NCBI GenBank assembly: GCA_902607585.1
Contig: CACLKP010000005.1
Location: forward strand, 1 to 32,921
Direction: 5' to 3'
DNA length: 32,921 nucleotides
DNA from: an uncultured Pelagibacteraceae bacterium
Lineage (GTDB): Bacteria > Pseudomonadota > Alphaproteobacteria > Pelagibacterales > Pelagibacteraceae
Program-made: the position numbers and the translations under genes
Notes under the pieces: generated by a model
Seen by the model: the letters and a program-made list of their open reading frames with translations, nothing else
Databases searched by the model: none
What the model was told of the DNA's origin: nothing
Part shown: positions 3,444-29,237 of the stretch, piece after piece
Numbering within the stretch: position 1 is the first letter of the stretch
Layout of the letters: each line of letters opens with the position of its first letter

Positions 3444-3905
3444 ATGAAATTAAAAAGTAATTCAAAAGCTCCTAACTTTAAATTACCTTCTACAGGTAAG
3501 ACCATCTTCGAATTAAATAAAATTAAAAAAAATATCATTTTATATTTTTATCCAAAAGATGATACACCTGGTTGTACTATTGAATCCAAAGACTTTAGTA
3601 AATTAAATAATTTAATTTCTAAAAATAAAACATGCGTATTTGGAATTTCAAAAGATAGCATCGAAAGTCATCTAAAATTCAAAAAAAAATATAAACTTAA
3701 ATTTGATTTATTATCTGACGAAAAATTATCAGTAATTAAAAAATATGGTGTTTGGGGAAAAAAATCATTTATGGGAATGAAATTTATGGGAATTATAAGA
3801 ACTACGTTTTTAATAAACTCAAAAGGTAAAATTCATAGGGTATGGCCCAATGTTAGAGTTAAAAATCATGCTAAAGAAGTGTTAGAAGAAATTAAAAAAA
3901 TTTAA
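3444..3905 (+). CDS. bcp: Thioredoxin-dependent peroxiredoxin (BCP/PrxQ-like)
   Basis: 153 aa. Contains APNFKLPSTG and LYFYPKDDTPGCTIESKDF (peroxidatic Cys motif), then VFGISKDS. Confidence 0.88.
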   Translation: MKLKSNSKAPNFKLPSTGKTIFELNKIKKNIILYFYPKDDTPGCTIESKDFSKLNNLISKNKTCVFGISKDSIESHLKFKKKYKLKFDLLSDEKLSVIKKYGVWGKKSFMGMKFMGIIRTTFLINSKGKIHRVWPNVRVKNHAKEVLEEIKKI

Positions 3906-5101
3906 AATAAGCTGCCTTCAAGACTATGTTTGTACAATTTTGTCATATCGTCTAATGAAGTTTTTTTGGGATTGTCTGGTGTACAAGGATCATTTAACGC
4001 CATGGGAGATAATTTTACTATATCTTTATCCGTTATATTTGCGCAATCAGATAGCTTATGTGGAATTTTTATTTTTTCACGTAAGTCCAATACCCAATCG
4101 AGAAAAGAATTAAAAGTCGCTTCTTTTAATTCAAGATACTCGCTTAATTTTGCAATTTTGTTTTCAATTACAGATCTGTTAAAAGTTAAAACATAAGGCA
4201 TAAAAACTGCATTAGATAAGCCGTGATGAATATTAAATACTGAGTTAACCGGATGACTTAATGAGTGAATAGCCCCCAAACCTTTTTGAAAAGCCGTAGC
4301 TCCCATACTTGAAGCTGTAAGCATATTTCCACGAGCTTCCAAATTTTCTCCTTCATTAACTGCTGTTGTTAACCATTTTTTAATTAACCACATTCCTTCT
4401 AGCGCTATACCATCAGCCATTGGGTGATAACCAGGAGCACAATAAGCTTCTAAATTATGTGCAAAAGCATCCATACCTGTTGCTGCTGTCAAAAATTTAG
4501 GTAAACCAACTGTTAACTCTGGATCGAGAATAGTCAAAGTTGGAAGCATTCTAGGATGAAAAATTATTTTTTTTGTATTTGTTTGTTCATTGATAATTGC
4601 AGCAGCCCTTGATGTTTCTGAACCAGTTCCTGCTGTAGTAGGTATGGCTATAATTGGCTTAATATTTTCAGTGTTAATCATTTTATTTTTTGCCATGGAT
4701 TCAAAAAATTTATTTTCTGACCAAAAACTTCCTTCCGCTGTAAAATCCCAAATCGGTCTATTTACAGAAGCTAATAATGCTATTGATTTACCTACATCTA
4801 AACTACTACCTCCTCCAATGGCTATTACACCATCGTGACTTCCATTTTTGAATTGTTCAACTCCCTTTTGAACGTGACTACCAAAAGGATTTCCTTTTAA
4901 ATCAGAGAAGACTGTTGTGGGTAAATTGGCTTCTTTATTTATATTTATAGTTTTTGATATGATTTGTGTTTTTGTTAAATCTTTATCTGTAACTAACAAA
5001 GGTTTTTTAATATTTAATATATTGCATGCTTTGGGTAATTTATTAATTCTTCCGTTGCCAAACCAAACGGTATTAGGGTAACCCCAATTAGAATTGGACA
5101 T
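3902..5101 (-). CDS. Iron-containing alcohol dehydrogenase
   Basis: 399 aa. Contains AIGGGSSLDVGKSIA, IPTTAGTGSETS, TGMDAFAHNLEAY and HSLSHPVNSVFNIHHGLSNAVFMP, the Fe-ADH family signatures. Confidence 0.88.
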   Translation of the reverse strand: MSNSNWGYPNTVWFGNGRINKLPKACNILNIKKPLLVTDKDLTKTQIISKTININKEANLPTTVFSDLKGNPFGSHVQKGVEQFKNGSHDGVIAIGGGSSLDVGKSIALLASVNRPIWDFTAEGSFWSENKFFESMAKNKMINTENIKPIIAIPTTAGTGSETSRAAAIINEQTNTKKIIFHPRMLPTLTILDPELTVGLPKFLTAATGMDAFAHNLEAYCAPGYHPMADGIALEGMWLIKKWLTTAVNEGENLEARGNMLTASSMGATAFQKGLGAIHSLSHPVNSVFNIHHGLSNAVFMPYVLTFNRSVIENKIAKLSEYLELKEATFNSFLDWVLDLREKIKIPHKLSDCANITDKDIVKLSPMALNDPCTPDNPKKTSLDDMTKLYKHSLEGSLF

Positions 5102-5179: not shown

Positions 5180-6520
5180 ATGACAAAAGTAGCAATTATT
5201 GGAACGGGACCGTGTGGTCTTTCAATGTTAAGATCTTTTGAACAAGCTGAAAAAAAAGGAGAAAAAATACCTCAAATAGTTTGTTTTGAAAAACAAGAAG
5301 ATTGGGGAGGATTGTGGAACTACAATTGGAGAACTGGATCTGATCAATATGGAGACCCTGTTCCTAACAGCATGTATAGATATCTTTGGTCAAATGGACC
5401 TAAAGAATGTTTAGAATTTGCTGATTATTCATTTGATGAGCATTTCGGACATCCAATTCCATCATTTCCGCCGAGAGAAGTTTTATATGATTATATAATT
5501 GGTAGAGTAAAAAAAGGGAATCTTAAAAACAAAGTAAGATTTAACACAACTGTTATGACTGTAACTTATAATGGAAAAAATTTTGAAGTAACTTCACATG
5601 ATAAAAAAAATGATAAATTTTCAAAAGATACATTTGATTATGTAATTGTGTCTACAGGACATTTCTCTGTTCCATTTATTCCAGAATATCCGGGAATGAA
5701 ATCTTTTCCAGGAAGAATATTACATTCGCATGATTTTAGAGACGCAGAAGAATTCAGAGGTAAAAATATTATTGTTTTAGGAAGTAGTTATTCAGCTGAA
5801 GATGTTGCTCTCCAATGTCATAAATATGGAGCAAAAAGTGTGACTATAGGTTATAGAAATAACCCAATGGGTTTTAAATGGCCTAACGGAATGAAAGAAG
5901 TCCATTATTTAGACAGGCTAGAAGGAAATAAAGCAATCTTTAAAGATGGTCACAAACAAGAAGCTGATGCAATAATTTTATGTTCAGGCTATCTTCATCA
6001 TTTCCCTTTTTTAACTGAAGACCTTAAACTAAAAACTAGAAACAGATTATATCCACCAAAATTGTATAAAGGCGTAGTTTGGGAAAAAAATCATAAATTG
6101 TTATACCTGGGTATGCAGGATCAATTTCATACCTTCAACATGTTTGATTGTCAGGCTTGGTATGCAAGAGATGTAATAATGGGTAAGATTAAAATTCCAA
6201 GTAAATCAGAAATCGAAAAAGATATAAATAAATGGGTTGCTATGGAAGAAAAATTAGAAAATCCTGAACAAATGATAGATTTTCAAACTGAATATACCAA
6301 AGAACTTCATGGATTATCTGATTATCCAAAAATTGATTTTGAATTAATTAGAAAACATTTCAAAGAATGGGAACATCATAAAGTAGAAGATATTATGACT
6401 TATAGGAATAAATCTTTTTCATCCCCAGTGACTGGATCAATTGCAACAATTCATCATACGCCATGGGCATCTGCAATGGATGATTCTTCAAAAGCTTTTT
6501 TAAATCAATCAAAAAAATAA
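5180..6520 (+). CDS. tmm: Flavin-containing monooxygenase, probable trimethylamine monooxygenase
   Basis: 446 aa. FAD site AIIGTGPCGLSML, ILHSHDFRDAEEFRGK, NADPH site IIVLGSSYSAEDVA, and MYRYLWSNGPKE. The overall pattern matches bacterial Tmm, and transporter and demethylase genes lie nearby. SD-like GGTGGAG precedes the ATG. Confidence 0.87.
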   Translation: MTKVAIIGTGPCGLSMLRSFEQAEKKGEKIPQIVCFEKQEDWGGLWNYNWRTGSDQYGDPVPNSMYRYLWSNGPKECLEFADYSFDEHFGHPIPSFPPREVLYDYIIGRVKKGNLKNKVRFNTTVMTVTYNGKNFEVTSHDKKNDKFSKDTFDYVIVSTGHFSVPFIPEYPGMKSFPGRILHSHDFRDAEEFRGKNIIVLGSSYSAEDVALQCHKYGAKSVTIGYRNNPMGFKWPNGMKEVHYLDRLEGNKAIFKDGHKQEADAIILCSGYLHHFPFLTEDLKLKTRNRLYPPKLYKGVVWEKNHKLLYLGMQDQFHTFNMFDCQAWYARDVIMGKIKIPSKSEIEKDINKWVAMEEKLENPEQMIDFQTEYTKELHGLSDYPKIDFELIRKHFKEWEHHKVEDIMTYRNKSFSSPVTGSIATIHHTPWASAMDDSSKAFLNQSKK

Positions 6521-6663
6521 GGTATCAAAAAAACTACACAGCCAAAAAAAAAGAAAATACTTCCAAACATAGCCCAAAAATTTCCAAGGCTAGACATAAT
6601 AAAACCAATTGCAGAAATCAAAAATAAAATCCATCCGGCAATATTTATAATTTTAGTATTCAT
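6505..6663 (-). CDS. Small hydrophobic (two-TM-like) protein, 52 aa, absent from the supplied ORF track
   Basis: Read by hand from CAT 6661-6663: MNTKIINIAGWILFLISAIGFIMSSLGNFWAMFGSIFFFFGCVVFLIPYFFD-stop. Same strand as tmoW, 20 nt downstream of its stop. Overlaps the 3' end of tmm by 16 nt, convergent. Confidence 0.55.
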   Translation of the reverse strand: MNTKIINIAGWILFLISAIGFIMSSLGNFWAMFGSIFFFFGCVVFLIPYFFD

Positions 6664-6683
6664 TTACCAATCAATTTGTAATT

Positions 6684-8837
6684 TTAAGCTAAACCAAGAT
6701 GTTTTTTTCTTTTATCTACCCAAGTTCTAATTAAATTATCAAATATCAGAGCTATGAAAGCGACACAAATACCAAGGATTAATCCTTTGCCCCCACCTGC
6801 TTTATCAGATAAAGCTTTTAGAATATATTGTCCTAAATCTTCTGTTCCAATAAATGCCCCAATTATTACCATAAACAGGGCAAATACTATTGTTTGATTT
6901 ACGCCAAGCATCATGTGAGGAAACGCTATTGGAAATTCTATATTTATTAATCTTTGTAATTTCGTTACACCTGACATTGAGCCTGCATCATGCAAAGCAG
7001 GTGGAACACTTCTTAATCCCTCAACAGTGTACCTTGTAGCAGGTATAGTTGCGTAAACAATTACTGCAATTAATACCGATGTATCCGTTATACCAAAAAG
7101 CATCATTACTGGAATTAAATATACAAAAGAAGGAAATGTTTGAAAAATATCACAAACTGCCAAAATAAATTTTGTGGTAAATTTATTCTGTGCACATAAA
7201 GTTCCAACAGTTAATCCAATTGTGCAAGATGCAATAACTCCAAAAGTTGCCATGTATGTTGTGACTAAAGCTCTATCCCACCATGGACTTAGCGCTATAA
7301 ATAATACTAATCCAGCTGTTACCAAAGCTGAACGAATTCCACCAATTATATAACCGGCTCCAACAACTAATGTTATAGTAGCCACTGCTGGCATTCTTAG
7401 ATACAAGGCTCTCATTGGTTGAAGAACTTCTGTTATTAACCAAGTATTAAATATTTTTAAAGTTTGAAAGAATGTATCCCAAATCCAATCAACACCTTTA
7501 TTCCAGAAATCTGCAAATGATATTCCTTTATTATGTGGAATCTCAGAAAAGTAATTAAAACTATCTTTAAACAAAAAAGATCCAGCGTAGGCAAATATCG
7601 CTCCAATCAATACTGCTCCAGCAAAAAATAATGTATTTTTATAACGCTGAAAAAACGTCAGGTTGCCAAAATAATCTTCTTGTTTATTTGCCCAAGCCAA
7701 AGACATTTTATCTAACAAGATCGCAATCATGCTAATACACAAACCAGCTTCTAATGCTAATCCAATATTTAGTTGATTTAAGGCTAACAATAAATTCCAT
7801 CCTAATCCTTTAGCACCTATAAAAGCTGCAATAACCGCCATAGAGAAACACACCATTATGACCTGGTTCACTCCTATTAAAATGTCTCTTCTTGCAGTTG
7901 GAATTAATACTTTGGTCATTAATTGCCAGTTATTACATCCACTCATTTTGCCAGCTTCAATAACTTCAGGAGATACTGCTCTAAGCCCTAACAAAGTTAA
8001 TAAGATCATTGGTGGAATCGCAACAACCATTGTTATAATAACTGCTGCATGATCTCCAATACCAAACAGAACCATTGCAGGAACTAGAACGGCATATTGT
8101 GGCATGGTCTGCATCACTAGGAGTAATGGATATAAAGCTTTCTCAACACGTTTACTCTTGTAAGCCATAACACCTAAAGTCAAACCAAATATGAAAGAAA
8201 GTGGTGCCGCTACTAATATAAAAGAGAGTGTTTGCATTGAAGGTTTCCATTGACCAAATACAGAAATATAAACCATGACTAAACCAGCAAATATAGCTAG
8301 ACCCTTACCGCTCAGTTTGTAACATAATATTACTGCACCCGCTGCAACGATGGTCCAAGGTAAACCTGGCAGTTCTGCCCATGGATTTTTATCTATCCAG
8401 TCCCAACTGGTAAATGCGACAACTGTTTTAGCACCACCTAATAAAATTTCTCTAATCAATTCAATAAGAAATGTCATAGATGCAGTTATAGTTCTTGTTA
8501 TTTGTAGTACTAAGGGTCGAGTTTTGTATTCTTGAGTATCCTCATTCCAAAACTCCATTGGCATCCATTCATTCAATAAGAAAAACAAAGAGTCATTTAC
8601 CCAAATAGGTAACCATCCAAGTAAAGGAGGTAATCTCCAAAGGACATCGAATGCATAATATCTTACTTCTTTGCCAAATAGTGTGTAAGTACTTTGATTT
8701 GGATCTTTAATGAATTCTGCTTGACCTCTTATAAATTTGTAGGTTTCGGGAACATCAATTGCAAAGCATAAAGCAAAAAATACAATTAACAAAAATAACC
8801 ATTGAAATAATTTTGGATATTTTTTTAATAATTCCAT
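6684..8837 (-). CDS. tmoW: TMAO ABC transporter permease, tandem-fused (two BPD_transp_1 domains)
   Basis: 717 aa with many TM segments and two EAA-loop-like copies: VIEAGKMSGCNNWQLMTKVLIPTARRDILIGVNQ and LHDAGSMSGVTKLQRLINIEFPIAFPHMMLGVNQ. Sits in an operon with the ATPase. Substrate is assigned by context. Confidence 0.82.
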   Translation of the reverse strand: MELLKKYPKLFQWLFLLIVFFALCFAIDVPETYKFIRGQAEFIKDPNQSTYTLFGKEVRYYAFDVLWRLPPLLGWLPIWVNDSLFFLLNEWMPMEFWNEDTQEYKTRPLVLQITRTITASMTFLIELIREILLGGAKTVVAFTSWDWIDKNPWAELPGLPWTIVAAGAVILCYKLSGKGLAIFAGLVMVYISVFGQWKPSMQTLSFILVAAPLSFIFGLTLGVMAYKSKRVEKALYPLLLVMQTMPQYAVLVPAMVLFGIGDHAAVIITMVVAIPPMILLTLLGLRAVSPEVIEAGKMSGCNNWQLMTKVLIPTARRDILIGVNQVIMVCFSMAVIAAFIGAKGLGWNLLLALNQLNIGLALEAGLCISMIAILLDKMSLAWANKQEDYFGNLTFFQRYKNTLFFAGAVLIGAIFAYAGSFLFKDSFNYFSEIPHNKGISFADFWNKGVDWIWDTFFQTLKIFNTWLITEVLQPMRALYLRMPAVATITLVVGAGYIIGGIRSALVTAGLVLFIALSPWWDRALVTTYMATFGVIASCTIGLTVGTLCAQNKFTTKFILAVCDIFQTFPSFVYLIPVMMLFGITDTSVLIAVIVYATIPATRYTVEGLRSVPPALHDAGSMSGVTKLQRLINIEFPIAFPHMMLGVNQTIVFALFMVIIGAFIGTEDLGQYILKALSDKAGGGKGLILGICVAFIALIFDNLIRTWVDKRKKHLGLA

Positions 8838-8840
8838 ATT

Positions 8841-9872
8841 TTAATCGTTATTTTTTCTTCCACCAAAAACAGTATGAATTATTTTTGAGGGATGAACCGT
8901 TCCCACAATTTTATTGCTTGCATCAGTGACAGCAACCGATTTTTCTTGAGTTAAAATCTTTTCAGCGACATTTTCAATGATCTCGTCTTTTGAAACTTTT
9001 AAATCACTTAAATTTTCTTTATTTGGTTTTTCCATTACATCTTCTATTTTTAAAACTTTTTCTCTAGGCACTTCTTCAGTAAATTTTTTTACATATTCTG
9101 TTGCTGGATTTAAAACAATTTTAGCTGGTGTATCTAACTGCTCAATTATTCCATCTTTCATAATTGCGATACGATCAGCCAGTTTTAGTGCTTCATCAAA
9201 ATCATGCGTAATAAACATGATTGTTTTTTTTAATTTTTCTTGAAGTCTTAAAAATTCGTCCTGCATTTCTTTTCTAATTAGTGGGTCTAATGCGGAAAAA
9301 GGTTCGTCTAAAAACCAAATATCAGGTTCAACAGCCAATGATCGAGCAATACCTACTCTTTGTTGTTGTCCACCAGAAAGTTCTCTTGGAAAATAATTTT
9401 CTCTTCCCTCAAGGCCAACAAGTTTAGCCATATCCAGAGCTTTATTAATACTATCTTCAGTTTTCATGCCTTTAATTTGAAGTGGAAAAGCAATATTTTC
9501 CAAAACTGTTTTATGCGGAAGCAAAGCAAAACTTTGAAACACCATTCCCATTTTATTTCTTCTAAGTTCAATTAGTTCTTTATTTTTTAATGAGAGTAAA
9601 TCTTGACCTTCAATATAAATTTTTCCATCTGTGGCATCTGTTAATCTAGAGATACATCTTAATAATGTAGATTTTCCTGAACCAGATAATCCCATTACAA
9701 CTAACATTTCTCCTTTTGAAACTTCAAAAGAAGCATTGTTCACACCTACAATGCATCCCATTTTCTGGAATGCTTTTGCGTCTACATTCCCATTTGCTTC
9801 TTGGAGCATCTTTTTGGCATTTACCCCAAAAATTTTATATACAGATTCACACTTGATTACAGCATCGGTCAT
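8841..9872 (-). CDS. tmoV: TMAO / glycine-betaine-type ABC transporter ATP-binding protein
   Basis: 343 aa. Walker A GLSGSGKSTLLR, LSGGQQQRVGIARSLA, Walker B DIWFLDEPFSALDP, H-loop FITHDFDEAL. ProV-like C-terminal CBS-like tail. Confidence 0.83.
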   Translation of the reverse strand: MTDAVIKCESVYKIFGVNAKKMLQEANGNVDAKAFQKMGCIVGVNNASFEVSKGEMLVVMGLSGSGKSTLLRCISRLTDATDGKIYIEGQDLLSLKNKELIELRRNKMGMVFQSFALLPHKTVLENIAFPLQIKGMKTEDSINKALDMAKLVGLEGRENYFPRELSGGQQQRVGIARSLAVEPDIWFLDEPFSALDPLIRKEMQDEFLRLQEKLKKTIMFITHDFDEALKLADRIAIMKDGIIEQLDTPAKIVLNPATEYVKKFTEEVPREKVLKIEDVMEKPNKENLSDLKVSKDEIIENVAEKILTQEKSVAVTDASNKIVGTVHPSKIIHTVFGGRKNND

Positions 9873-9937
9873 AATCTTTTAACAAGTTATACGAAATTTA
9901 GTAAAAATAAAATCTATATAATTATTGTATTGCCTCC

Positions 9938-10489
9938 CTAAAAGTTTTTAATAAAATAAACCCTTGTATCAATTCCAGTATTGAAAAAACTTAAAACCTC
10001 TCCACTAACAGTAATTGTTTCATTTACTCCAACATTACTTCCAGTTACAACAAAACCAGCAAAACATTTTTTATTCTCTTTGTTCCATTTAACAAATGTT
10101 TCTTTAATATCATTACCGTTAATAGTATATATGTGTTTAGCTTTAAAATTTGTTAAATTAGCGCCCATAACAGAACGCTGAGATACAATTTTTGTTGCAT
10201 TGCAAACTGCTTCGTGTTGTTCTTCGGACAATTTATGGCCTTCAGTTCCTTCATGGGGTACTAGAATACCTGATGGAAGGCTTGAAATCAGTTTACTTAG
10301 TTTTTGTTCTTGTGCAATTCTTTCCTCTTCTAATTTCATTTTTCTAACTAATTCATCACCTCCACCCCAAAAAATATTTAAAATAGCAAAAGATAAAATT
10401 ACGATAAATGTTAGAGTAACAAGACCGCCAAATTGTCTAACTGGTTCAGGTAACTCCTTTAATTTATTTAAATATCTATCTTGTAGCAT
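9938..10489 (-). CDS. Hypothetical protein with one N-terminal TM helix, inside the TMAO transporter gene set
   Basis: 183 aa. TM segment FGGLVTLTFIVILSFAILNIF followed by a soluble domain. I do not recognise a family. Confidence 0.7.
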   Translation of the reverse strand: MLQDRYLNKLKELPEPVRQFGGLVTLTFIVILSFAILNIFWGGGDELVRKMKLEEERIAQEQKLSKLISSLPSGILVPHEGTEGHKLSEEQHEAVCNATKIVSQRSVMGANLTNFKAKHIYTINGNDIKETFVKWNKENKKCFAGFVVTGSNVGVNETITVSGEVLSFFNTGIDTRVYFIKNF

Positions 10490-10497
10490 TATTTTAA

Positions 10498-10872
10498 TTA
10501 TTCTTTTAATTCACCGTTTTTCCAAATTCCTGTTTTTTGTGTTCCATCGGACCAAGTAAATGTTCCTTTACCATTCATGAAACCATTGGCCCATTCTCCT
10601 TCATAAGTTGCACCATCTGGAAAAGTTAAAATTCCTTGTCCACTCCACTCGCTATTTTTAAATTCACCTTTATAAATATATCCATTGGGCCAAATTTCAG
10701 TTCCTTGACCATTTTTTTTTGTACCAACCCAATTCCCTTCATAAGTTGTTTTGTCTGTATAAGTCCATTTACCAAAACCATCTACACAATTTCCTTCACA
10801 ACCCGTCTTTCGAGCTGATACTGAAGTCGTAATTAAAAAACCTAAAATTATATAAAATATATATTTTTTCAT
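10498..10872 (-). CDS. MORN-repeat protein with N-terminal signal-like segment
   Basis: 124 aa. Signal-like MKKYIFYIILGFLITTSVSA, then MORN-type repeats TTYEGNWVGTKKNGQGTEIWPNG, YIYKGEFKNSEWSGQGILTFPDG, ATYEGEWANGFMNGKGTFTWSDG. Confidence 0.85.
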   Translation of the reverse strand: MKKYIFYIILGFLITTSVSARKTGCEGNCVDGFGKWTYTDKTTYEGNWVGTKKNGQGTEIWPNGYIYKGEFKNSEWSGQGILTFPDGATYEGEWANGFMNGKGTFTWSDGTQKTGIWKNGELKE

Positions 10873-10893
10873 TGTTCCATTTTACACGAAATT

Positions 10894-10935
10894 ATATAAA
10901 AAAAAATCTCTCCCGACATAATATCGGGAGAGATT
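10894..10935 (-). terminator. Intrinsic terminator/attenuator downstream of tmoX
   Basis: Perfect 12-bp stem AATCTCTCCCGA (10905-10916) / TCGGGAGAGATT (10924-10935), 7-nt loop. On the minus strand it is followed by a run of T. Located between the tmoX stop and the MORN gene. Confidence 0.88.
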
Positions 10936-10961
10936 ATCAAAAGCTTAAGTTTTACAAATGT

Positions 10962-11918
10962 TTATTTTGTAAACTTTTTCCAAACTTTTTTGTTGTCTTT
11001 AAGCCATTTTTTACCAGCATCTTCGTGAGTCATTTTGTCAACGTCAACTAAAGCTGCCATTGCACCAATTTGACCTGTAGAGAAAGACATTTTCTTGAAC
11101 GCTGCAGCTGCCTTTGGATGAGTTTTTACAAAGTCTGCATTTACAGCCTTTTTCAAATAACCATCTGGTGAACCACATTTTCCATCACCACCGTCTTCTG
11201 GTCTACAACCAGCAGTGTATGGAGGAAAGTCTATAAATGTAAAACCAGCACCATCTGTAAAGTTTGGTGTCCAGTTGAATATTATAGTTCCTCTGTCTTC
11301 TTTTTTAGCCGCTGCTAATTCTGCCCAAAGTGCATCTGCACTTCCAGCAAACTTAACTACCCAAAGATCTCCTAACCCTAAAGCATCAATTCTTTGAGGT
11401 ATTAAATCTCCGTGCCAAGTTTGTGGACCTTCTAACATTCGTCCTTTTCCACCTGAGTCAGGTGTTACAAAGTTCTTAGCACAATCAGGATTTTTTAAAG
11501 CAGTCCAATCTGGAAGACCTGGGCATTTTTCTGCAACCCAGTTTGGATATCCCATATCTTCAAGAGTTCTTGCTTCGTGATCTCCCCAGTCAAGTAAACC
11601 GCCTTTATCTAGAGCTGTGGTAAATGATTTACCAAAAGCAGATTCCCAAACTTCGTGCGATATATCTATATCACCAATACGAATTGATTCGTAAACCGCT
11701 TGTGAGTCAGCCGGTACATATTCCACATTATTTCCCATACTTTCAAAAATTCCACCAATCACGTAAGCCATTACAACTTGACTTGACCAATTGTGTGTTG
11801 GAATTCTGATAGGTTTTTTGCTGTCAGCTGCATATGTGGCAAAACTGAATGCCGATATGATCGCTGCTACAACTAACCCTTTTATCATTTTAATTATGTT
11901 CATATTTTTTTCTCCCAT
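10962..11918 (-). CDS. tmoX: TMAO ABC transporter substrate-binding protein (OpuAC-like)
   Basis: 318 aa. Signal peptide IKGLVVAAIISAFSFATYAA. IRIPTHNWSSQVVMAYVIGGIFESMGNNVEYVPADSQAVYESIRIGDIDISHEVWE matches glycine-betaine/TMAO-type binding proteins. Divergent from the tdm-like gene. Start may be the ATG nearer MNIIKMIKG. Confidence 0.83.
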   Translation of the reverse strand: MGEKNMNIIKMIKGLVVAAIISAFSFATYAADSKKPIRIPTHNWSSQVVMAYVIGGIFESMGNNVEYVPADSQAVYESIRIGDIDISHEVWESAFGKSFTTALDKGGLLDWGDHEARTLEDMGYPNWVAEKCPGLPDWTALKNPDCAKNFVTPDSGGKGRMLEGPQTWHGDLIPQRIDALGLGDLWVVKFAGSADALWAELAAAKKEDRGTIIFNWTPNFTDGAGFTFIDFPPYTAGCRPEDGGDGKCGSPDGYLKKAVNADFVKTHPKAAAAFKKMSFSTGQIGAMAALVDVDKMTHEDAGKKWLKDNKKVWKKFTK

Positions 11919-11930
11919 TTAAACATTAAT

Positions 11931-11951
11931 TAATTAAAGTTACTTTAATTA
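11931..11951. promoter_or_regulatory. Perfect inverted repeat in the tmoX-tdm divergent intergenic region, candidate operator
   Basis: TAATTAAAGT-T-ACTTTAATTA: 10-bp arms, 1-nt centre, between divergent starts 11918 and 12029. Confidence 0.4.
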
Positions 11952-11991
11952 GACAAAGTCTATGTGCTCATTTTTTGCGAGTCAATGTTCA

Positions 11992-12019
11992 TTGCGAGAA
12001 TCTTGAGGACTGATATAGT
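11992..12019 (+). promoter_or_regulatory. Candidate sigma70-like promoter for tdm
   Basis: TTGCGA (11992-11997), 16-nt spacer, TATAGT (12014-12019). The implied start site would be only a few nt before ATG 12029. Confidence 0.35.
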
Positions 12020-12028
12020 GTGTTTTAT

Positions 12029-14365
12029 ATGGAAAAAAGCCAAACTAGCTTAGATATACGAAACCCTGGATTAATGGCTTTACCACCAGGAGTTGAAAGA
12101 TATTTCGTAAGAGGTGGTGGTTTATCAGTCTTAGAGATTTTGCCAGAAGATAAATTAGAAATAATTAACGATGAAGGTAAACAAACATGTGAAGTTGTAG
12201 TTTTTAATTCTGAAGGCAAATCTGATCTGTCAATATTAAATTTGAAAGAAAATTCAGATGCTAGTTTTTCAAAAAAAACAATTTTAGTTGATGAAAAAAT
12301 TACAAAACTATTTAAAAGAAAAAAATTCGATCTTAATAGAGCAAAATCTTCAACAATATTTGATAAGGATTGTCAAATAGGTGAAAAAATAATTTTAAAA
12401 TCTAAAGATAAGTGTACAGTTATGCTTGCGGCTCCTGGAGAAGCCATGAATGTTCATGATCAAAATCCTCCAACTGATTTAACTGTTTTTTTAAATAAAT
12501 CTAAATTTGATGGCAATAAAGAAGAGCAATACGTTTTGCCCGAACCACTTGGTGACCCTACATACGAAAAATTTATCAAAAGACGTACTGTTGAAACTTA
12601 TGAAGTAAAGGCAGGAGAATACATTCAAATTATAGACACAAGTGGTAGACAATGTTCAGATTTCTTAGCTTTTGATAAAGCTAAACTGGATAAAAGAATT
12701 GAAAGTATCATTGATGCTACAGCTACTCGTACCTTTATGGGAGCTGCTTATCCATCTCCGGGTTTATTTTCAAAATTTTTTGATATGGAACATGACCCAA
12801 TGATTGAAGTTGTTAGAGACACCGTTGGTAGACATGATACTTTTAATTATGCATGTACAGCAAAATACTATGAGGATATGGGTTACTTTGGTCATATAAA
12901 TTGCTCGGAAAATTTTAATATTGCATTAAAAAAATATGAAGTAAAATCAAGAAAAGGTTGGACTGCTATTAATCTTTTTTTTAACACGAGTATTAATCAA
13001 TTAAACGTTGCATCTTTTGACGAGCCATGGTCTAGACCTGGAGATTATGTATTATTTAGAGCATCAAAAGATTTAATATGCGCTTCTTCTGCTTGCCCTT
13101 GCGATGTTGATCCTGCAAATGGATGGAATCCAACGGATATATTTGTTAGAACTTATCCTAAGGAACAAAAATATTCGAAAGCTGTAGCGTTTAGAATGAA
13201 GGAAGATTCAGAACCAAAATTGACAAAAGAAACTGGTTTTCACAAAAAAACATCCAAACTTACTAGAAATTTTATTGATTATAATGGCTATTGGTTAGCC
13301 AATAATTATACAAACTATGGAACGATTAACGAATATACAGCTTGCAGAGAAAAAGCTATCGCAATTGATTTATCTCCTTTAAGAAAATTTGAAATTGTAG
13401 GTCCGGACTCTGAAAATTTAATGCAGTACGCGCTTACAAGAAATGTAAAAAAACTTTCAATAGGACAAGTTAGTTACTCTGCTATGTGCTACGACAACGG
13501 CTGTATGATCGATGACGGAACAATTTTCCGTCTAGGTAAAGATAATTTTCGATGGATTGGTGGCCAAGAGTACGGTGGTACATGGTTAAGAGAATTGGCC
13601 AAAAAAAAGAAATATAAAGTTTGGGTAAAATCTTCAACCGATCAAATTCATAATATTTCAGTTCAGGGACCAAACAGTAGAAAAATATTAGAAAAATTTG
13701 TTTGGACAGCACCTGCGCAACCAAAAGTAAATGAACTTCAATGGTTTAGATTTGCCATTGCCAGAATTGATGATCACTTAGGTACTCCTATTATTGTATC
13801 TAGAACAGGATATACCGGTGAATTAGGTTTTGAAATCTGGTGCCATCCTAAAGATGCCCCCAAAGTTTGGGATAAAGTTTGGGAACATGGAAAAAATTTA
13901 GGCATAGTTCCTATGGGTTTAGAAGGTTTGGATATGGTAAGAATTGAAGCTGGACTTATTTTTTATGGATACGAATTTAATGATCAAACTGATCCGTTCG
14001 AATCTGGAATAGGATTTTCTGTCGCACTAAAAACTAAAGAAGATGATTTCGTCGGAAAAGATGCGTTAATAAAAAGAAAAGGATCCCCGCAAAAAAAACT
14101 GGTTGGTCTAGAGCTAATAGGAAAAGAGCAAGCTAGTAATGGAGACGGAGTACATGTAGGAAGAGCCACTGTTGGTGTAATAACTAGCGGAATGATATCT
14201 CCTAAGCTAAATAAAAATATAGCACTTTGTAGAATGGATGTTAAATATGCGGACATCGGTACAAATGTTGAAGTGGGTAAAATTGATGGTCACCAAAAGC
14301 GAATTGGAGCAAAAGTTGTTAAATTTCCTTTTTATGATCCTGAAAAATTAAAAGTAAAATCATAA
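12029..14365 (+). CDS. tdm: Trimethylamine-N-oxide demethylase (N-terminal DUF1989-like domain plus C-terminal GcvT/THF-binding domain)
   Basis: About 778 aa from ATG 12029. N-terminal half has QIIDTSGRQCSDFLAFD and CASSACPCDVDPANGWNPTDIFVRTYP. C-terminal half is GcvT-like (VQGPNSRKILEKF, VSRTGYTGELGFEIWCHP, PMGLEGLDMVRIEAGLIFYGYEF). This is the Tdm architecture, divergent from tmoX. Confidence 0.88.
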   Translation: MEKSQTSLDIRNPGLMALPPGVERYFVRGGGLSVLEILPEDKLEIINDEGKQTCEVVVFNSEGKSDLSILNLKENSDASFSKKTILVDEKITKLFKRKKFDLNRAKSSTIFDKDCQIGEKIILKSKDKCTVMLAAPGEAMNVHDQNPPTDLTVFLNKSKFDGNKEEQYVLPEPLGDPTYEKFIKRRTVETYEVKAGEYIQIIDTSGRQCSDFLAFDKAKLDKRIESIIDATATRTFMGAAYPSPGLFSKFFDMEHDPMIEVVRDTVGRHDTFNYACTAKYYEDMGYFGHINCSENFNIALKKYEVKSRKGWTAINLFFNTSINQLNVASFDEPWSRPGDYVLFRASKDLICASSACPCDVDPANGWNPTDIFVRTYPKEQKYSKAVAFRMKEDSEPKLTKETGFHKKTSKLTRNFIDYNGYWLANNYTNYGTINEYTACREKAIAIDLSPLRKFEIVGPDSENLMQYALTRNVKKLSIGQVSYSAMCYDNGCMIDDGTIFRLGKDNFRWIGGQEYGGTWLRELAKKKKYKVWVKSSTDQIHNISVQGPNSRKILEKFVWTAPAQPKVNELQWFRFAIARIDDHLGTPIIVSRTGYTGELGFEIWCHPKDAPKVWDKVWEHGKNLGIVPMGLEGLDMVRIEAGLIFYGYEFNDQTDPFESGIGFSVALKTKEDDFVGKDALIKRKGSPQKKLVGLELIGKEQASNGDGVHVGRATVGVITSGMISPKLNKNIALCRMDVKYADIGTNVEVGKIDGHQKRIGAKVVKFPFYDPEKLKVKS

Positions 14366-14378
14366 TATAGTTTGCATA

Positions 14379-14729
14379 ATGATCAAAAATACTAAGTCCC
14401 TTTTAATGTTTTGGGAAAAACAAATGAAAAAATCTCAAAGTTCTAGTAATTATTTTTTTAGAAAATCACCTTCACATTATCATATGATGCTGCTGGTAAT
14501 GACGGCTTATTTTAATAAAAACAACTTATCAGTAGAAGAATTGAAGACAAAATTATTTAAAACATCAAGACCTAAATCTGCACTGATAATTAATGAGGCA
14601 TGTGAAAAAGGTTTTTTTTATTTAGAAAAAGGATCTACTGACATGAGAAAAAAATTTATCAAGCCAAGCACTATATTTATCAGTGAATTTAACGATTATC
14701 TTGTTACTCTTAAAAATGTAAGCAACTAA
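14379..14729 (+). CDS. Putative winged-helix (MarR-like) DNA-binding protein
   Basis: 116 aa. LSVEELKTKLFKTSRPKSALIINEACEKGFFYLEKGSTDMRKKFIKPS resembles the MarR recognition helix plus wing (S-x-D-x-R-x-K-x-x-x-P). Starts 14 nt after tdm. Confidence 0.55.
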   Translation: MIKNTKSLLMFWEKQMKKSQSSSNYFFRKSPSHYHMMLLVMTAYFNKNNLSVEELKTKLFKTSRPKSALIINEACEKGFFYLEKGSTDMRKKFIKPSTIFISEFNDYLVTLKNVSN

Positions 14730-14833
14730 TATTGCCTCATATCTAGAAGAATATTCCTTATTTTTTTTATATATATTTTTTAGTTCTAAAAAAAAATATT
14801 TTATCCTTTTAATTTTTTTTCCATCATCAAGAT

Positions 14834-15772
14834 ATGAGCCATCAACATTACAATCCTATAAAGACACGATTGCAAAGAAGCGAATTAGCAGTTCCTGGAT
14901 CATCTCCAAAAATGTTTGAAAAAGCTTTAAATTCAAATGCAGACTATATCTTTTTAGATCTTGAAGATGCCGTTTCACCAAATGACAAAATATCAGCTCG
15001 TGAAAATATAATTAAAGCTCTTAACGAAATTAATTGGAGAGCAAAGGGCAAAACTATTTCGGTAAGAATTAATAGCCTCGATACCCATTATATGTATCGT
15101 GATATCGTTGATATAATGGAACAAGCCGGCGATAAAGTTGATACTATTTTAATTCCCAAAGTTGGTACAAGCAGCGATGTGTATATGGTTGACTGTTTAT
15201 TAACTCAAATTGAAAATCAAAAAAAATTAAATAATAAAGCAGGAATAGAATGTTTAATTGAAACTGCATTGGGCATGTCAAATATTAAGGAAATTGCAAA
15301 ATCTAGTAATCGATTAGAAGCACTTCATTTTGGTGTGGCGGACTATGCAGCAAGTTTACGAGCACGAACCGTTGTAATTGGTGGATTGAATCCTGACTAT
15401 CCCGGAGATCAATGGCACCATGGTTTGTCACAATTAGTAATGACGTGCAGAGCTTATGGGTTAAGAGCAATTGATGGACCTTTTGGTGATTTTAAAGATC
15501 CTGATGCATATATAGCTTCTGCAAAAAGAGCAGCTGCAATTGGAATAGAAGGTAAATGGGCAATTCACCCGTCGCAAATTGATCTAGCAAATGATGTATT
15601 TTCTCCACCGAAAGATGAAGTCAACAGAGCAAAAAAAATTCTTGAAGAACTTGATAAAGCTGCAAAGACAGGAAAAGGTGCTGCACAATTAGATGGAAGA
15701 ATGATTGATGCTGCTTCAGCCCGTATGGCAGAAAATATTGTTAACATTAATAAACTTATTGAAAGTAAATAA
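14834..15772 (+). CDS. mcl: L-malyl-CoA lyase (HpcH/HpaI citrate-lyase beta family)
   Basis: 312 aa. Contains RSELAVPGSSPKMFEKAL, DYIFLDLEDAVSPNDK, IECLIETALGMSNIKEIA, LHFGVADYAASL and KWAIHPSQIDLANDVF. Immediately precedes malate-CoA ligase genes. Confidence 0.85.
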   Translation: MSHQHYNPIKTRLQRSELAVPGSSPKMFEKALNSNADYIFLDLEDAVSPNDKISARENIIKALNEINWRAKGKTISVRINSLDTHYMYRDIVDIMEQAGDKVDTILIPKVGTSSDVYMVDCLLTQIENQKKLNNKAGIECLIETALGMSNIKEIAKSSNRLEALHFGVADYAASLRARTVVIGGLNPDYPGDQWHHGLSQLVMTCRAYGLRAIDGPFGDFKDPDAYIASAKRAAAIGIEGKWAIHPSQIDLANDVFSPPKDEVNRAKKILEELDKAAKTGKGAAQLDGRMIDAASARMAENIVNINKLIESK

Positions 15773-15773
15773 A

Positions 15774-16946
15774 ATGGATATTCACGAATACCAGGCAAAA
15801 AAAATACTATCTAGTTTTGGTATAGGAATTCCTCGTGGTGGTATTGCATACAGCCCAGAAAATGCAGAATATAAAGCTCGTGAAATTGGCGGATCAAAAT
15901 GGGTGGTTAAAGCCCAAGTTCATTCTGGAGCAAGAGGAAAAGCAGGTGGAATTATAATCTGTAATAGCGCACTAGAAGTAGCGCAAGCAACTGATAAAAT
16001 TCTCGGCAAAAAGCTAGTTACAAAACAAACAGGCCCACAAGGTAAGATTGTTCATAGAGTTTATATTGAAGAAGCTACAGATATTCAAAAAGAATTATAT
16101 TTAGGTTTAGTTTTTGACCGAAGTTCTGAATGTATAATGGTGGTTGCTTCAACAGAAGGCGGAATGAGTGTGGAGGAAATTTCTAAACAGAAACCCGAAA
16201 CTATAATTAGATCAAAAATAGAGGTCGCTGTTGGAATGCAAAAATTTCAAGCAAGAGAAATTGCTTTTGGTTTAAATATTGATGCTAAACTCATCTCTAG
16301 AACGGCAGAAGTAATTATAGGGTGCTACCGCGCATTTAGTGAGTTGGATGCAACTATGGTAGAAATTAATCCGTTAGTAATATCAAAAAATGAACAAATC
16401 TTAGCTCTCGATTGCAAAATGAGTTTTGATAATAATGCTTTATTTCGCAGAAATCAGGTTTCTGAGCTAAGAGATAAAGCACAAGAAAATCCAAATGAAG
16501 TTTATGCCTCAGATAGAGGACTTAATTATGTAAGTCTTGAAGGTAATATTGGAAATATTATTAATGGGGCAGGTTTAGCGATGGCTTCAATGGATATGAT
16601 TAAATTAGCTGGGGGTGAACCTGCAAATTTTCTTGATGTTGGTGGAGGTGCTACACCTGAAAAAATGGTTAAAGCATTTAAATTAATTTCCCAAGATGAA
16701 AAAGTTAAAGTTATTTTAGTAAATATTTTTGCTGGTATAAATAGATGTGATTGGGTTGCTGAAGGAATAGTGCAAGCTTTAGAAAAAATTAAAATTGATA
16801 AACCACTTATTATACGGTTAGCAGGAACTAATGTTGAAAAAGGCAATAAAATTTTAAAAGAGAGCAAAATAAAATATATTGAAGCTTCTACTTTAGAAGA
16901 TGCCGCAAACAAAGCTGTTTTTGCCCTAAAAAAATTGGAAAATTAG
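15774..16946 (+). CDS. mtkA: Malate-CoA ligase beta subunit (succinyl-CoA synthetase beta family)
   Basis: Start taken at ATG 15774 (MDIHEYQAKKILSSFGIGIPRG), one nt after the mcl stop. ATP-grasp family: KAQVHSGARGKAGGI, VEINPLV, LDVGGGATPEKM, NIFAGINRCDWVAEG. Malate specificity is from context. Confidence 0.82.
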   Translation: MDIHEYQAKKILSSFGIGIPRGGIAYSPENAEYKAREIGGSKWVVKAQVHSGARGKAGGIIICNSALEVAQATDKILGKKLVTKQTGPQGKIVHRVYIEEATDIQKELYLGLVFDRSSECIMVVASTEGGMSVEEISKQKPETIIRSKIEVAVGMQKFQAREIAFGLNIDAKLISRTAEVIIGCYRAFSELDATMVEINPLVISKNEQILALDCKMSFDNNALFRRNQVSELRDKAQENPNEVYASDRGLNYVSLEGNIGNIINGAGLAMASMDMIKLAGGEPANFLDVGGGATPEKMVKAFKLISQDEKVKVILVNIFAGINRCDWVAEGIVQALEKIKIDKPLIIRLAGTNVEKGNKILKESKIKYIEASTLEDAANKAVFALKKLEN

Positions 16947-16954
16947 ATAAAACA

Positions 16955-17854
16955 ATGTCAATTCTTATCGATAATAAAACAAATATTATAGTCCAAGGTT
17001 TTACTGGTAAGTTTGGATCTTTCCATGCAGAAGAGATGATGAAATATGGCACTAATATTGTCGGTGGAGTAACTCCCGGCAAAGGAGGCAAAAAACATTT
17101 GGGGTTGCCAGTTTTTAATACCGTAAAAGATGCAGTTAAAAATACAGGTGCTACTGCTAGTATTTTGTTCGTGCCGCCAGAGTTTGCTGCCGATTCTGCA
17201 ATGGAAGCTGCTGATGCTGGAATTAAAACATGTGTAGCAATCACCGACGGAATCCCTTCTCATGATATGATTAAAATTAAACGTTATATGAGGAGATATT
17301 CTAAAAAAGATAAAATGACATTAATAGGTCCAAATTGCGCAGGTATTATTAGTCCAGGAAAAGCTTTGTTGGGAATTATGCCAGGACATATTTATATGCA
17401 AGGCAAGGTTGGTGTTATTGGACGATCGGGTACACTTGGGTATGAAGCAGCTCAACAGATGAAAAATTTAAATATAGGTGTTTCAACTAGCGTTGGGATT
17501 GGAGGAGATCCTATTAACGGATGCTCATTTCGAGATGTTTTAGAAAAATTTGAACAAGACGATCAAACCAAAGCTATATTAATGATTGGTGAGATAGGAG
17601 GTCCTCAAGAAGTCGAAGCAGGTAAATTTGCAAAAGAAAATATGTCAAAACCAATAGTAGCTTATATAGCTGGACTAACCGCTCCCAAAGGAAGGGTGAT
17701 GGGCCACGCAGGAGCGATTGTTTCAGCATATGGAGAAAGTGCTGTTGAAAAAGTTGAGCTTTTAAAGGAGTGCGGTATTACAATATCTAAAAACCCTTCC
17801 GTAATGGGTGAAACTGTAAAATTAGTTTTAAATGGTAAAAAAATACAATCATAA
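16955..17854 (+). CDS. mtkB: Malate-CoA ligase alpha subunit (succinyl-CoA synthetase alpha family)
   Basis: 299 aa. Contains IIVQGFTGKFGSFHAEEM, VGGVTPGKGGKKHLGLPVFNTV, GPNCAGIISPGKALLGIMPGHI and GHAGAIVS. Malate specificity from context. Confidence 0.83.
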   Translation: MSILIDNKTNIIVQGFTGKFGSFHAEEMMKYGTNIVGGVTPGKGGKKHLGLPVFNTVKDAVKNTGATASILFVPPEFAADSAMEAADAGIKTCVAITDGIPSHDMIKIKRYMRRYSKKDKMTLIGPNCAGIISPGKALLGIMPGHIYMQGKVGVIGRSGTLGYEAAQQMKNLNIGVSTSVGIGGDPINGCSFRDVLEKFEQDDQTKAILMIGEIGGPQEVEAGKFAKENMSKPIVAYIAGLTAPKGRVMGHAGAIVSAYGESAVEKVELLKECGITISKNPSVMGETVKLVLNGKKIQS

Positions 17855-20555
17855 AAGAAATGCAAATATAGAACTTTCTAAAATTGTTAGTTTACTAGGA
17901 AAAATATTAGGTTCTGTAATCAAAGAACAAGAAGGAATTGCATTATATAATAAAATAGAAAAAATAAGATCATTATCTAAAGCAAGCAGAGGAAAGAAAA
18001 CTAAAAAAAAAATAAAGCTAAACGAAACAAAAAAGTTTCGACAATTAATATCAAGTATTAAAAAATTAAAATCTCAAGAGTCTCTGGTTGTAGCCAGATC
18101 TTTCAACAAATTTTTAAATTTTTCAAATTTAGCAGAATCTCTTGACAGCGTTCACAAGATAGATAGCGGGAAAGTGCGTAAAGCCCAAGGCACTAATGAA
18201 TTTACTATTTTGGAAGATGCAATATTAAGATTATTAAACAATAAATCTATCTCTAAAAAAGATTTTTATGAAAGCGCAAAAAAAATAAAAATTGATTTAG
18301 TGCTAACAGCTCATCCAACAGAAGTAAAAAGACGAACGCTTATACAAAAATATACACAGGTAAATAATATTTTGGAAAAATTTAATAAATCAAGAATATT
18401 TAAACTAAAAAATATTGAAAAAGAAACTTTGGCTTTAGAACAAAATCTGCATGAAGAAATTACATCTATATGGAAAACGGATGAAATCAAAAGAAGCAGA
18501 CCAACCCCTGATGAAGAAGCTAGATGGGGGCTAGCCGTTATTGAAGACAGTTTATGGAATGCTGTACCTAAAATATGCTCTCGTTTTGATAAAGCTGTTC
18601 AAAATTATAGTGGGAAGAGGTTACCAATTAACTTTTCTCCAATCGTATTTGGATCATGGATGGGTGGAGACAGAGATGGAAACCCAAATGTCACATCAAA
18701 TATTACTAAAAGAATTATTTTACTTACAAGATGGGAGGCAGCTACTCTCTATGAAAAAGAATTTACTAAAATAATTCAGAAATTATCTATGCATGAATGT
18801 TCCAAAAATTTAAGAAGAAAAATTAGAAATAGCCAAGAACCTTACCGGGTCTATTTAAGACCAATAAGAAATAAATTGATAAATACTCAAAAGGAAATTG
18901 AACTATTTTTAAATGAAAAAAAACCTATAGATGAGTCGAAAATTGTTCAATCAATCAATGAAATAATAGATCCATTAACAAATGTTTATAATTCATTATG
19001 TGCTGTTAAATGTAAAACTATAGCTGATGGATCAATATTAGATTTGATAAGAAGAGCTTATTCATTTGGAATAAATCTTGTAAAGGTTGATATTCGCCAA
19101 GAATCTACGCGTCATCAAGAACTTATGAGAAGTATTTGTATGCATTTACGTCTCGGTGACTTCAATAAATGGACGGAAGAAGAAAAAATTTCTTTTTTGT
19201 CAAAAGAATTTAACTCAAAACGTCCTTTAGTTTCAAAAAATATGAAATTCGATAAAGAAGATAAAGAAACTTGGCTAACATTTAAAACGCTTTCTAAATT
19301 ACCGAGGGAATGTTTAGGTGCTTATGTTATCTCTATGACGTCCAATGTTTCTGACATATTGACAGTAATGGTTCTCCAAAAAAAAGCTGGTATGAAAAAT
19401 TGTTTACGCATAGTTCCTTTATTTGAAACTTTATTTGATTTAGAGAATGCTCATCAAGTAATTGAAAAATTATATAATTTATCTTGGTATTTAAAACATT
19501 TTAAATACAAACAGGAAATAATGATTGGCTATTCTGATTCAAGTAAAGATGCTGGAAAGCTTGCGGCAAGCTGGGCTCAATATTGTACACAAGAAAGATT
19601 ACAAAAAATATCAAACAAGCATAAAGTAAAATTAACTTTATTTCATGGACGAGGTGGTTCAGTGGGCCGAGGAGGAGGACCAATTTATGAAGCATTGTTA
19701 TCTCAGCCTCCTGGAACGGTTAATTGCAGAACTCGGGTAACAGAGCAAGGGGAAATTATTCAACAAAAGTTTGGTACTGAATCTTTAGCTGAGTATAGTC
19801 TCGGAACTTATATTGGTTCGGTTTTGGAAGCTACTTTGTCACCACCGATAAAACCAAAAGAAAATTGGCGCAAGTTAATGAATGATATGAGTGTTATTTC
19901 TAGCTACGCATATCGTAGTTATTTAAAAAAAGATAAAAACTTTTTAGAATATTATTATCAAGTAACGCCCCAAAAAATATTAGAACAACTTTTTATTGGT
20001 TCAAGACCTACTAAACGCAAAAAATCCCATGGTATAAAAGATTTACGTGCTATACCGTGGGTATTTGCCTGGACACAAATTCGTTTTATTTTACCAGCGT
20101 GGCTCGGAACGTTAGAGGCGTTAAATATTGCTAAAGAAGGTAAAAACAAAATTATATTAAAAGATATGTTAAGCCATTGGCCTTTTTTTTATGCAATGAT
20201 GGATATGTTGGACATGGTGTTAACAAAAACTGATCAAAGAGTAATTAAATTTTATGAAGAATGTCTTGCTGATAAAAGCCTAAAAAAAGTTGGAGAAAAA
20301 CTTAGGAAACAACTATCTTATCTTGTTTATTTAAACAAAAAAATTATACCAAGTTATATACTAGAACAGCGAAAAGAATATAGAGAATCAATAAGAATAA
20401 GAAATACTTATGCTGAAGTATTAAATTTGCTTCAAGCTGATATAATGAGAAAACTTAGTCAAAGAAAAACGAAAGGAAAAAATAGAAAAATTTTAATAGA
20501 TGCTGTATTAGTAACAGTTGCAGGAATTGCAGCAGCAATGAAAAACACAGGATAG
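17832..20555 (+). CDS. ppc: Phosphoenolpyruvate carboxylase
   Basis: 907 aa. Contains VLTAHPTEVKRRTL, FGSWMGGDRDGNPNVT, MIGYSDSSKDAGKLAASWAQY, LFHGRGGSVGRGGGP, EQGEIIQQKFG and a C-terminal ...AAAMKNTG. Start overlaps mtkB by 23 nt. Confidence 0.93.
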   Translation: MVKKYNHKRNANIELSKIVSLLGKILGSVIKEQEGIALYNKIEKIRSLSKASRGKKTKKKIKLNETKKFRQLISSIKKLKSQESLVVARSFNKFLNFSNLAESLDSVHKIDSGKVRKAQGTNEFTILEDAILRLLNNKSISKKDFYESAKKIKIDLVLTAHPTEVKRRTLIQKYTQVNNILEKFNKSRIFKLKNIEKETLALEQNLHEEITSIWKTDEIKRSRPTPDEEARWGLAVIEDSLWNAVPKICSRFDKAVQNYSGKRLPINFSPIVFGSWMGGDRDGNPNVTSNITKRIILLTRWEAATLYEKEFTKIIQKLSMHECSKNLRRKIRNSQEPYRVYLRPIRNKLINTQKEIELFLNEKKPIDESKIVQSINEIIDPLTNVYNSLCAVKCKTIADGSILDLIRRAYSFGINLVKVDIRQESTRHQELMRSICMHLRLGDFNKWTEEEKISFLSKEFNSKRPLVSKNMKFDKEDKETWLTFKTLSKLPRECLGAYVISMTSNVSDILTVMVLQKKAGMKNCLRIVPLFETLFDLENAHQVIEKLYNLSWYLKHFKYKQEIMIGYSDSSKDAGKLAASWAQYCTQERLQKISNKHKVKLTLFHGRGGSVGRGGGPIYEALLSQPPGTVNCRTRVTEQGEIIQQKFGTESLAEYSLGTYIGSVLEATLSPPIKPKENWRKLMNDMSVISSYAYRSYLKKDKNFLEYYYQVTPQKILEQLFIGSRPTKRKKSHGIKDLRAIPWVFAWTQIRFILPAWLGTLEALNIAKEGKNKIILKDMLSHWPFFYAMMDMLDMVLTKTDQRVIKFYEECLADKSLKKVGEKLRKQLSYLVYLNKKIIPSYILEQRKEYRESIRIRNTYAEVLNLLQADIMRKLSQRKTKGKNRKILIDAVLVTVAGIAAAMKNTG

Positions 20556-23837: not shown

Positions 23838-23850
23838 AATTTATTTTTTA

Positions 23851-24831: not shown

Positions 24832-24857
24832 AATTTTTATATTAATTTATAATTTTT

Positions 24858-26036: not shown

Positions 26037-26041
26037 TTTTG

Positions 26042-26755: not shown

Positions 26756-26768
26756 TGTTAATTATTTA

Positions 26769-28175: not shown

Positions 28176-28252
28176 TGATTTCTATATATGTTCAATAATT
28201 GAACGGAGAATATCTAGAAATTGTTTTACTGTAAAGTAAAATTATTTATTAT

Positions 28253-29188: not shown

Positions 29189-29237
29189 TTGGAGGGTGTA
29201 ATTCTAAAAAACTTAAAAGTCAATATAATCTTTGCAT

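Follow-up and report, generated by a model that had tools for sequence, protein, structure and literature searches.

A malate-splitting gene cassette beside the methylamine genes of SAR11 bacteria and its possible part in glycine and serine supply

What use would a SAR11 bacterium, of an abundant ocean group usually said to oxidise methyl carbon purely for energy, have for enzymes that split malate? The question is raised by a stretch of 32,921 nucleotides (nt) of DNA, hereafter the window, which is contig C5 (CACLKP010000005.1) of an uncultured member of the SAR11 family Pelagibacteraceae, whose genome assembly (GCA_902607585.1; G000) comprises 723,634 bases in 43 contigs and is 55% complete. 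Here, genes for the oxidation of trimethylamine (TMA) and trimethylamine N-oxide (TMAO) stand beside mcl, mtkA, mtkB and ppc, for malyl-CoA lyase, the two subunits of malate-CoA ligase and phosphoenolpyruvate (PEP) carboxylase, and a preliminary description of the sequence proposed that one-carbon (C1) units derived from methylamines are assimilated through this serine-cycle-type module. We put at about an even chance a smaller proposal, in which mcl-mtkA-mtkB-ppc would be the malate-splitting arm of a serine cycle without its closing arm, an open route feeding glycine and serine. Cultured strains of subclade I need external glycine or serine; a malate-splitting module by the amine genes would let some lineages make glyoxylate and glycine themselves, and would carry part of the amine carbon into biomass.

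The four genes form a tight, co-oriented run on the forward strand, as first described: mcl (14834..15772) lies 1 nt from mtkA (beta subunit; 15774..16946) and mtkA 8 nt from mtkB (alpha subunit; 16955..17854), which overlaps ppc (17832..20555) by 23 nt. A gene for a DUF1015 protein (PF06245; 20562..21764, forward strand) follows directly, co-oriented and 6 nt after ppc, and because of these short spacings and the overlap mcl-mtkA-mtkB-ppc-DUF1015 is probably a single transcript. The preliminary description had allowed that phylogeny might place mtkAB with succinyl-CoA synthetases and mcl with citramalyl or citryl lyases, which would refute its proposal; neither placement occurred. The top solved relative of Mcl is a malyl-CoA lyase (5ugr, 380 bits), the protein is 58-69% identical to Mcl of the reference operons, and in the tree SAR11 Mcl is nested among methylotroph Mcl (support 98/95 and 100/99) and not with CitE or citramalyl lyases. 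Its R78, E143, D170 and D292 align with R76, E141, D168 and D299 of Rhodobacter sphaeroides Mcl, the metal-binding and catalytic residues of that enzyme. MtkA scores 633 bits against NF010647, the model for the beta subunit of malate-CoA ligase (cut-off 604). It shares about 63% identity with proteins annotated as malate-CoA ligase in Paracoccus, Ruegeria and Aminobacter and 58-64% with MtkA of the reference operons, against only 45-49% with Pelagibacteraceae SucC. A 38-sequence tree joins SAR11 MtkA to reference MtkA and sets it apart from SAR11 SucC with 100/100 support, and a separate SucC accompanies MtkA in 10 of the 13 cassette genomes searched, the remaining three being incomplete. MtkB is 67-72% identical to its counterparts in the reference operons and has the GHAGA motif, with the phospho-histidine at 251. 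The possibility that MtkAB is a misnamed SucCD is rejected by the identity to SucC and by the tree split; judged by their sequences, the window enzymes are malate-CoA ligase and a serine-cycle-type Mcl, as first named.

In the route proposed here, Ppc would convert PEP and bicarbonate to oxaloacetate, housekeeping malate dehydrogenase (Mdh) would turn oxaloacetate into malate, MtkAB would use ATP to make malyl-CoA, and Mcl would cleave this to glyoxylate and acetyl-CoA. Glyoxylate would then be aminated to glycine, by serine-glyoxylate aminotransferase (Sga) where that enzyme is present, and glycine would combine with methylene-tetrahydrofolate (methylene-THF), supplied by methylamine or TMAO demethylation, to yield serine. 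Gene identities and phylogeny are directly supported, as are the neighbourhoods and the absence of glycerate 2-kinases described below; from them we infer the direction of the route, its flux, the amination step and the tie to TMAO carbon. The C1 uptake would be open-ended rather than net growth on C1, with perhaps a little amine carbon passing into serine, and SAR11 bacteria carrying the cassette probably cannot live on amine carbon. Two points become testable in existing cultures: strain differences in the need for glycine, and the assimilation of TMAO carbon.

Does the chemistry run towards glyoxylate, or away from it? The window Ppc belongs to the PRK00009 type (NF000584, 926.2 bits, cut-off 815) and shares only 27-29% identity with the serine-cycle Ppc of Methylobacterium or Paracoccus; both SAR11 lineages of the enzyme lie off the serine-cycle Ppc branch, with 100/100 support. 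Among Pelagibacteraceae genomes, Ppc accompanies mcl in 24/34 cases and is found in 2/15 genomes without it (Fisher, p = 4e-4, kinship not removed). The gene directly after mtkB is of one lineage in the window, in genomes G010, G016, G019 and G027 and at loci L042, L049 and L057, and of another at L041 and L054, where it is nested among Ppc genes from unrelated sites. Because two lineages arrived at the same spot, PEP carboxylation and malate splitting appear to belong together, and the association agrees with flow towards malate splitting, as the opposite direction requires no Ppc. One Ppc (G117:C8:11890-14530) is seemingly in two pieces, with an internal TAG that reflects either sequencing error or decay.

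Mcl and MtkAB are reversible in principle, and the main rival to malate splitting is that they run the other way, Mcl joining glyoxylate to acetyl-CoA and MtkAB freeing malate from malyl-CoA with a gain of ATP, so as to salvage glyoxylate that arises from glycolate, purines or glycine. At most cassette loci ppc is not adjacent, as such salvage would allow, but malate synthase is already present in 27/34 genomes with mcl and 14/15 without, and the repeated recruitment of ppc would be left unexplained; we think this direction rather doubtful. The presence of malate synthase in most mcl-bearing genomes also led us to reject a replacement of that enzyme by Mcl and MtkAB.

How firmly, then, is the cassette tied to the amine genes? 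A first survey of 100 relatives found close Mcl copies in 6/60 Pelagibacteraceae, in several genera. A scan of public genomes then returned at least 573 candidate relatives, of which the best 80 (≥80% identity) were kept; as the locus sample was chosen by similarity to the window, its counts are not frequencies in nature. The preliminary description suggested a survey of tdm-mcl-mtkAB-ppc synteny in related genomes: of 84 mcl-mtkAB loci, 22 fall within the methylamine island, with mgd, GMAS, mgs and tdm, whereas 56 follow hisB-H-A-F-E and six are elsewhere or on pieces too short to place. The orientation of the cassette relative to tdm varies, being inverted in most sister islands, and a small open reading frame (ORF) intervenes between tdm and mcl, which together indicate a gene neighbourhood rather than one conserved tdm-mcl operon. 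On the tree of Mcl, MtkA and MtkB combined, the island label must change three times, and well-supported branches force two or more of these changes. At L091 and L116-L118, mcl-mtkA-mtkB occurs at other sites still, including in single amplified genomes labelled just Alphaproteobacteria, at 80-85% identity. An Mcl homologue of the sister family f2 (53-57% identity; L037 7919-8911 and L038 8439-9416) was considered as the same system and rejected, as at the two wider loci it lies between recombinase-like and accA-like genes, without mtkAB.

Another explanation is that cassette and amine genes stand together by chance: an accessory cassette that shifts between a handful of sites, or acts on another acyl-CoA, would have come to rest in a variable island. 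In its favour are roughly three changes of site on the tree, four or more genomic contexts and a patchy distribution (the 6/60 above), but island sites in different genera have neighbours in common, namely Sga or serA-serC, mgd and ppc, and we consider it unlikely. Those neighbours, ppc after mtkB and Sga or serA-serC nearby, point to C1-serine metabolism. Sga, whose top solved relative is a serine-glyoxylate aminotransferase (6pk1), adjoins the cassette in G010 and G027 and at L049 and L057; a search of genomes found it beside the cassette in G010, G027, G100 and G101, and did not find it in the 55%-complete window genome or in G016, G019, G105 and G106. In G016 and G019 serA-serC stands beside the cassette in place of Sga, and contig C30 of the window genome has the order serA-serC-mgd. 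Nine island-ppc genomes were tested for Sga and SerC together: eight carry one but not the other, and a single genome carries both. None of the 15 genomes whose cassette stands at the his site yielded SerC. The complete genome G053 carries mcl, mtkAB, Sga and Ppc. The order DUF1015-serC-serA recurs in G105, G106, G107, G110 and G027, and DUF1015 stands beside serA-serC in G016; since this is the usual SAR11 order, the DUF1015 gene that ends the window run is a serine-operon partner.

Several observations weigh against an open route to glycine and serine. Most SAR11 copies of mcl-mtkAB lie beside the his operon, with neither ppc nor tdm adjacent. Genomes of the class to which the window belongs possess SerA and SerC, with Sga undetected, and should thus have no need of glyoxylate to make serine; the window genome itself has no assigned enzyme for turning glyoxylate into glycine, and carries serA-serC instead. 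The yield of strain HTCC7211 falls four-fold without glycine (PMC6775983), and Sun et al. predict C1 oxidation for energy, with no net C1 assimilation, in SAR11 (PMC3160333). An overall tie between mcl and the absence of serC was also rejected (10/34 vs 6/15, p = 0.52); because the two are unassociated over all genomes, relief of auxotrophy does not hold throughout.

Could the route close into a cycle? The preliminary description proposed looking for the remaining serine-cycle genes: Sga is present in some islands as above, a hydroxypyruvate/glyoxylate reductase homologue (37-42% identity) occurs in most SAR11 genomes tested, with or without the cassette, and glycerate 2-kinase, an enzyme that would close the cycle, is missing. 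A GckA query matched none of 18 genomes, and neither PF13660 nor PF02595 gave an accepted match in 51 SAR11 genomes (34 cassette-bearing), in a search that covered the two bacterial families of glycerate 2-kinase and in which the controls were positive. Incomplete assemblies do not explain the gap, because malate synthase was seen in 27/34 of the cassette genomes. The tetrahydrofolate genes fhs and folD are reported in HTCC1062, HTCC1002 and HTCC7211 (PMC3160333), and a mosaic occurrence of isocitrate lyase is described for subclade IIIa (PMC10030771).

A natural modified serine cycle would bypass glycerate altogether, C1 and glycine giving serine, deamination of serine giving pyruvate, pyruvate phosphate dikinase (PPDK) making PEP and Ppc oxaloacetate, and MtkAB with Mcl regenerating glyoxylate; if true, C1 units and bicarbonate would yield a net gain of acetyl-CoA with no need for glycerate kinase. 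Its topology matches a cycle engineered in Escherichia coli (PMC6162302), PPDK is present in 43/51 genomes, and several genomes hold Ppc, MtkAB and Mcl with an AGXT-type aminotransferase. PPDK is general in SAR11, however, and not linked to the cassette, and a search for serine dehydratases of the iron-sulfur type (PF03313) gave no accepted match in the 51 genomes; we regard such a cycle as improbable. A complete classical serine cycle with net assimilation of methylamine-derived C1 is most improbable and already largely refuted, since, for all that mcl, mtkAB, ppc, sometimes sga and a reductase homologue are present, the 51 genomes yielded no GckA/DUF4147 or GlxK glycerate kinase, a gene that lies near mtkAB or mcl in methylotroph clusters, the Ppc is of a different type, and the reductase is equally present without the cassette. 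With glycerate kinase looked for and not found, the module is not to be counted as a serine-cycle member. Of the assimilation first proposed, the full cycle is thus unlikely, and what survives is a smaller claim, that malate splitting can supply glyoxylate and hence glycine, which would take up C1 as serine; the tempting error of labelling cassette genomes serine-cycle methylotrophs is corrected.

The nearest parallels lie in the alphaproteobacterial methylotroph serine cycle (Methylorubrum/Methylobacterium extorquens AM1, Aminobacter aminovorans, Paracoccus aminovorans), which likewise clusters mcl, mtkA, mtkB and sometimes sga, in Aminobacter with the same mcl-mtkA-mtkB order; unlike these, SAR11 has no glycerate kinase that we found, a Ppc of another subfamily, Sga in only some islands and no hprA in the cluster. 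Closest in gene order is a partial sga-mcl-mtkA-mtkB cluster on plasmid pB of Sinorhizobium meliloti, with an Mcl identity of 68%. Like the SAR11 cluster it is without hprA and gck, but unlike the window it has no methylamine genes or ppc adjoining. In the engineered E. coli cycle, part of which the open route resembles, Ppc, Mdh, Mtk, Mcl, an aminotransferase and SHMT convert PEP and C1 into glycine and serine, with glycerate kinase unneeded (PMC6162302). That cycle is synthetic, and depends on two further enzymes, a serine deaminase and one that turns pyruvate into PEP; in SAR11 only the second is evident, as PPDK. The published SAR11 pathway of C1 and methylamine oxidation has the same amine and THF-linked genes, and the cassette sits in that island, but the account predicts a role in energy alone and says nothing of malyl-CoA enzymes (PMC3160333). 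In offshore SAR11, agxt (Sga/AGXT, in some islands here beside the cassette) has been proposed to relieve glycine/serine auxotrophy (PMC12636525), in a paper that describes no Mcl/MtkAB source of glyoxylate and in whose text 'malyl' is absent. Isolates of subclade I have no serABC and require glycine or serine, and serABC is reported in some subclade I/II genomes (PMC10030771); according to Becker et al., HTCC7211 reaches full yield only with glycine, and has no glycolate route (PMC6775983). Literature searches, which did not extend to subscription papers and preprints, returned no description of mcl-mtkAB in SAR11 and none joining malyl-CoA lyase, SAR11 and trimethylamine, so the module is provisionally new to the group.

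ORFs and family models place the amine genes, like the cassette, where the preliminary description had them. Tmm, the trimethylamine monooxygenase (5180..6520, forward strand; NF058570, 750.6 bits, cut-off 675), and Tdm, the TMAO demethylase (12020..14365, forward strand; NF053776, 1152.6 bits, cut-off 1100; PDB 9q59, 852.7 bits), both exceed the cut-offs of curated models and so belong to TMA/TMAO oxidation. Between them on the reverse strand lie a tmoW-like fused ABC permease of ProW/ChoW type with two BPD_transp domains (6684..8837), a tmoV-like ABC ATPase (8841..9872; TIGR01186, 342.9 bits) and a tmoX-like substrate-binding protein with an OpuAC domain (10962..11918), whose top solved relative, 4xz6, scores 279.5 bits against 34 bits for the second match. 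The small ORF between tdm and mcl (14379..14729, forward strand; 116 residues; 13 nt after tdm and 104 nt before mcl) is conserved in 15 other island loci, the aligned copies being 68-87% identical to that of the window. It is likely a MarR-like winged-helix regulator, to judge from a structure model (pLDDT 85.5) whose Foldseek matches are of the MarR/SarX/PefR family (best E 3.9e-4). Control by a riboswitch was rejected, since no Rfam family reached its gathering score in the window, and a permissive scan of 11900-15000 returned just a chance snoRNA match.

Elsewhere, in G019, an AdoCbl-II (B12) riboswitch (L032 16645-16737, 74 bits), to our knowledge unexpected in a SAR11 genome, lies just upstream of a 636-residue ORF for a candidate TonB-dependent receptor. 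In the window, a MORN-repeat protein and a 183-residue ORF, the latter matching no Pfam or NCBIfam family, lie between tmoX and tmoV (9938-10872, reverse strand) and are conserved in sister islands. An iron-containing alcohol dehydrogenase gene (3902-5101, reverse strand) adjoins tmm in divergent orientation, and the far end (21969-32865, reverse strand) is occupied by a surface-sugar cluster with asparagine-synthase-like, SGNH-like, two NeuB/PseI-like and PseF-like genes, a glycosyltransferase, an SDR and a radical SAM protein.

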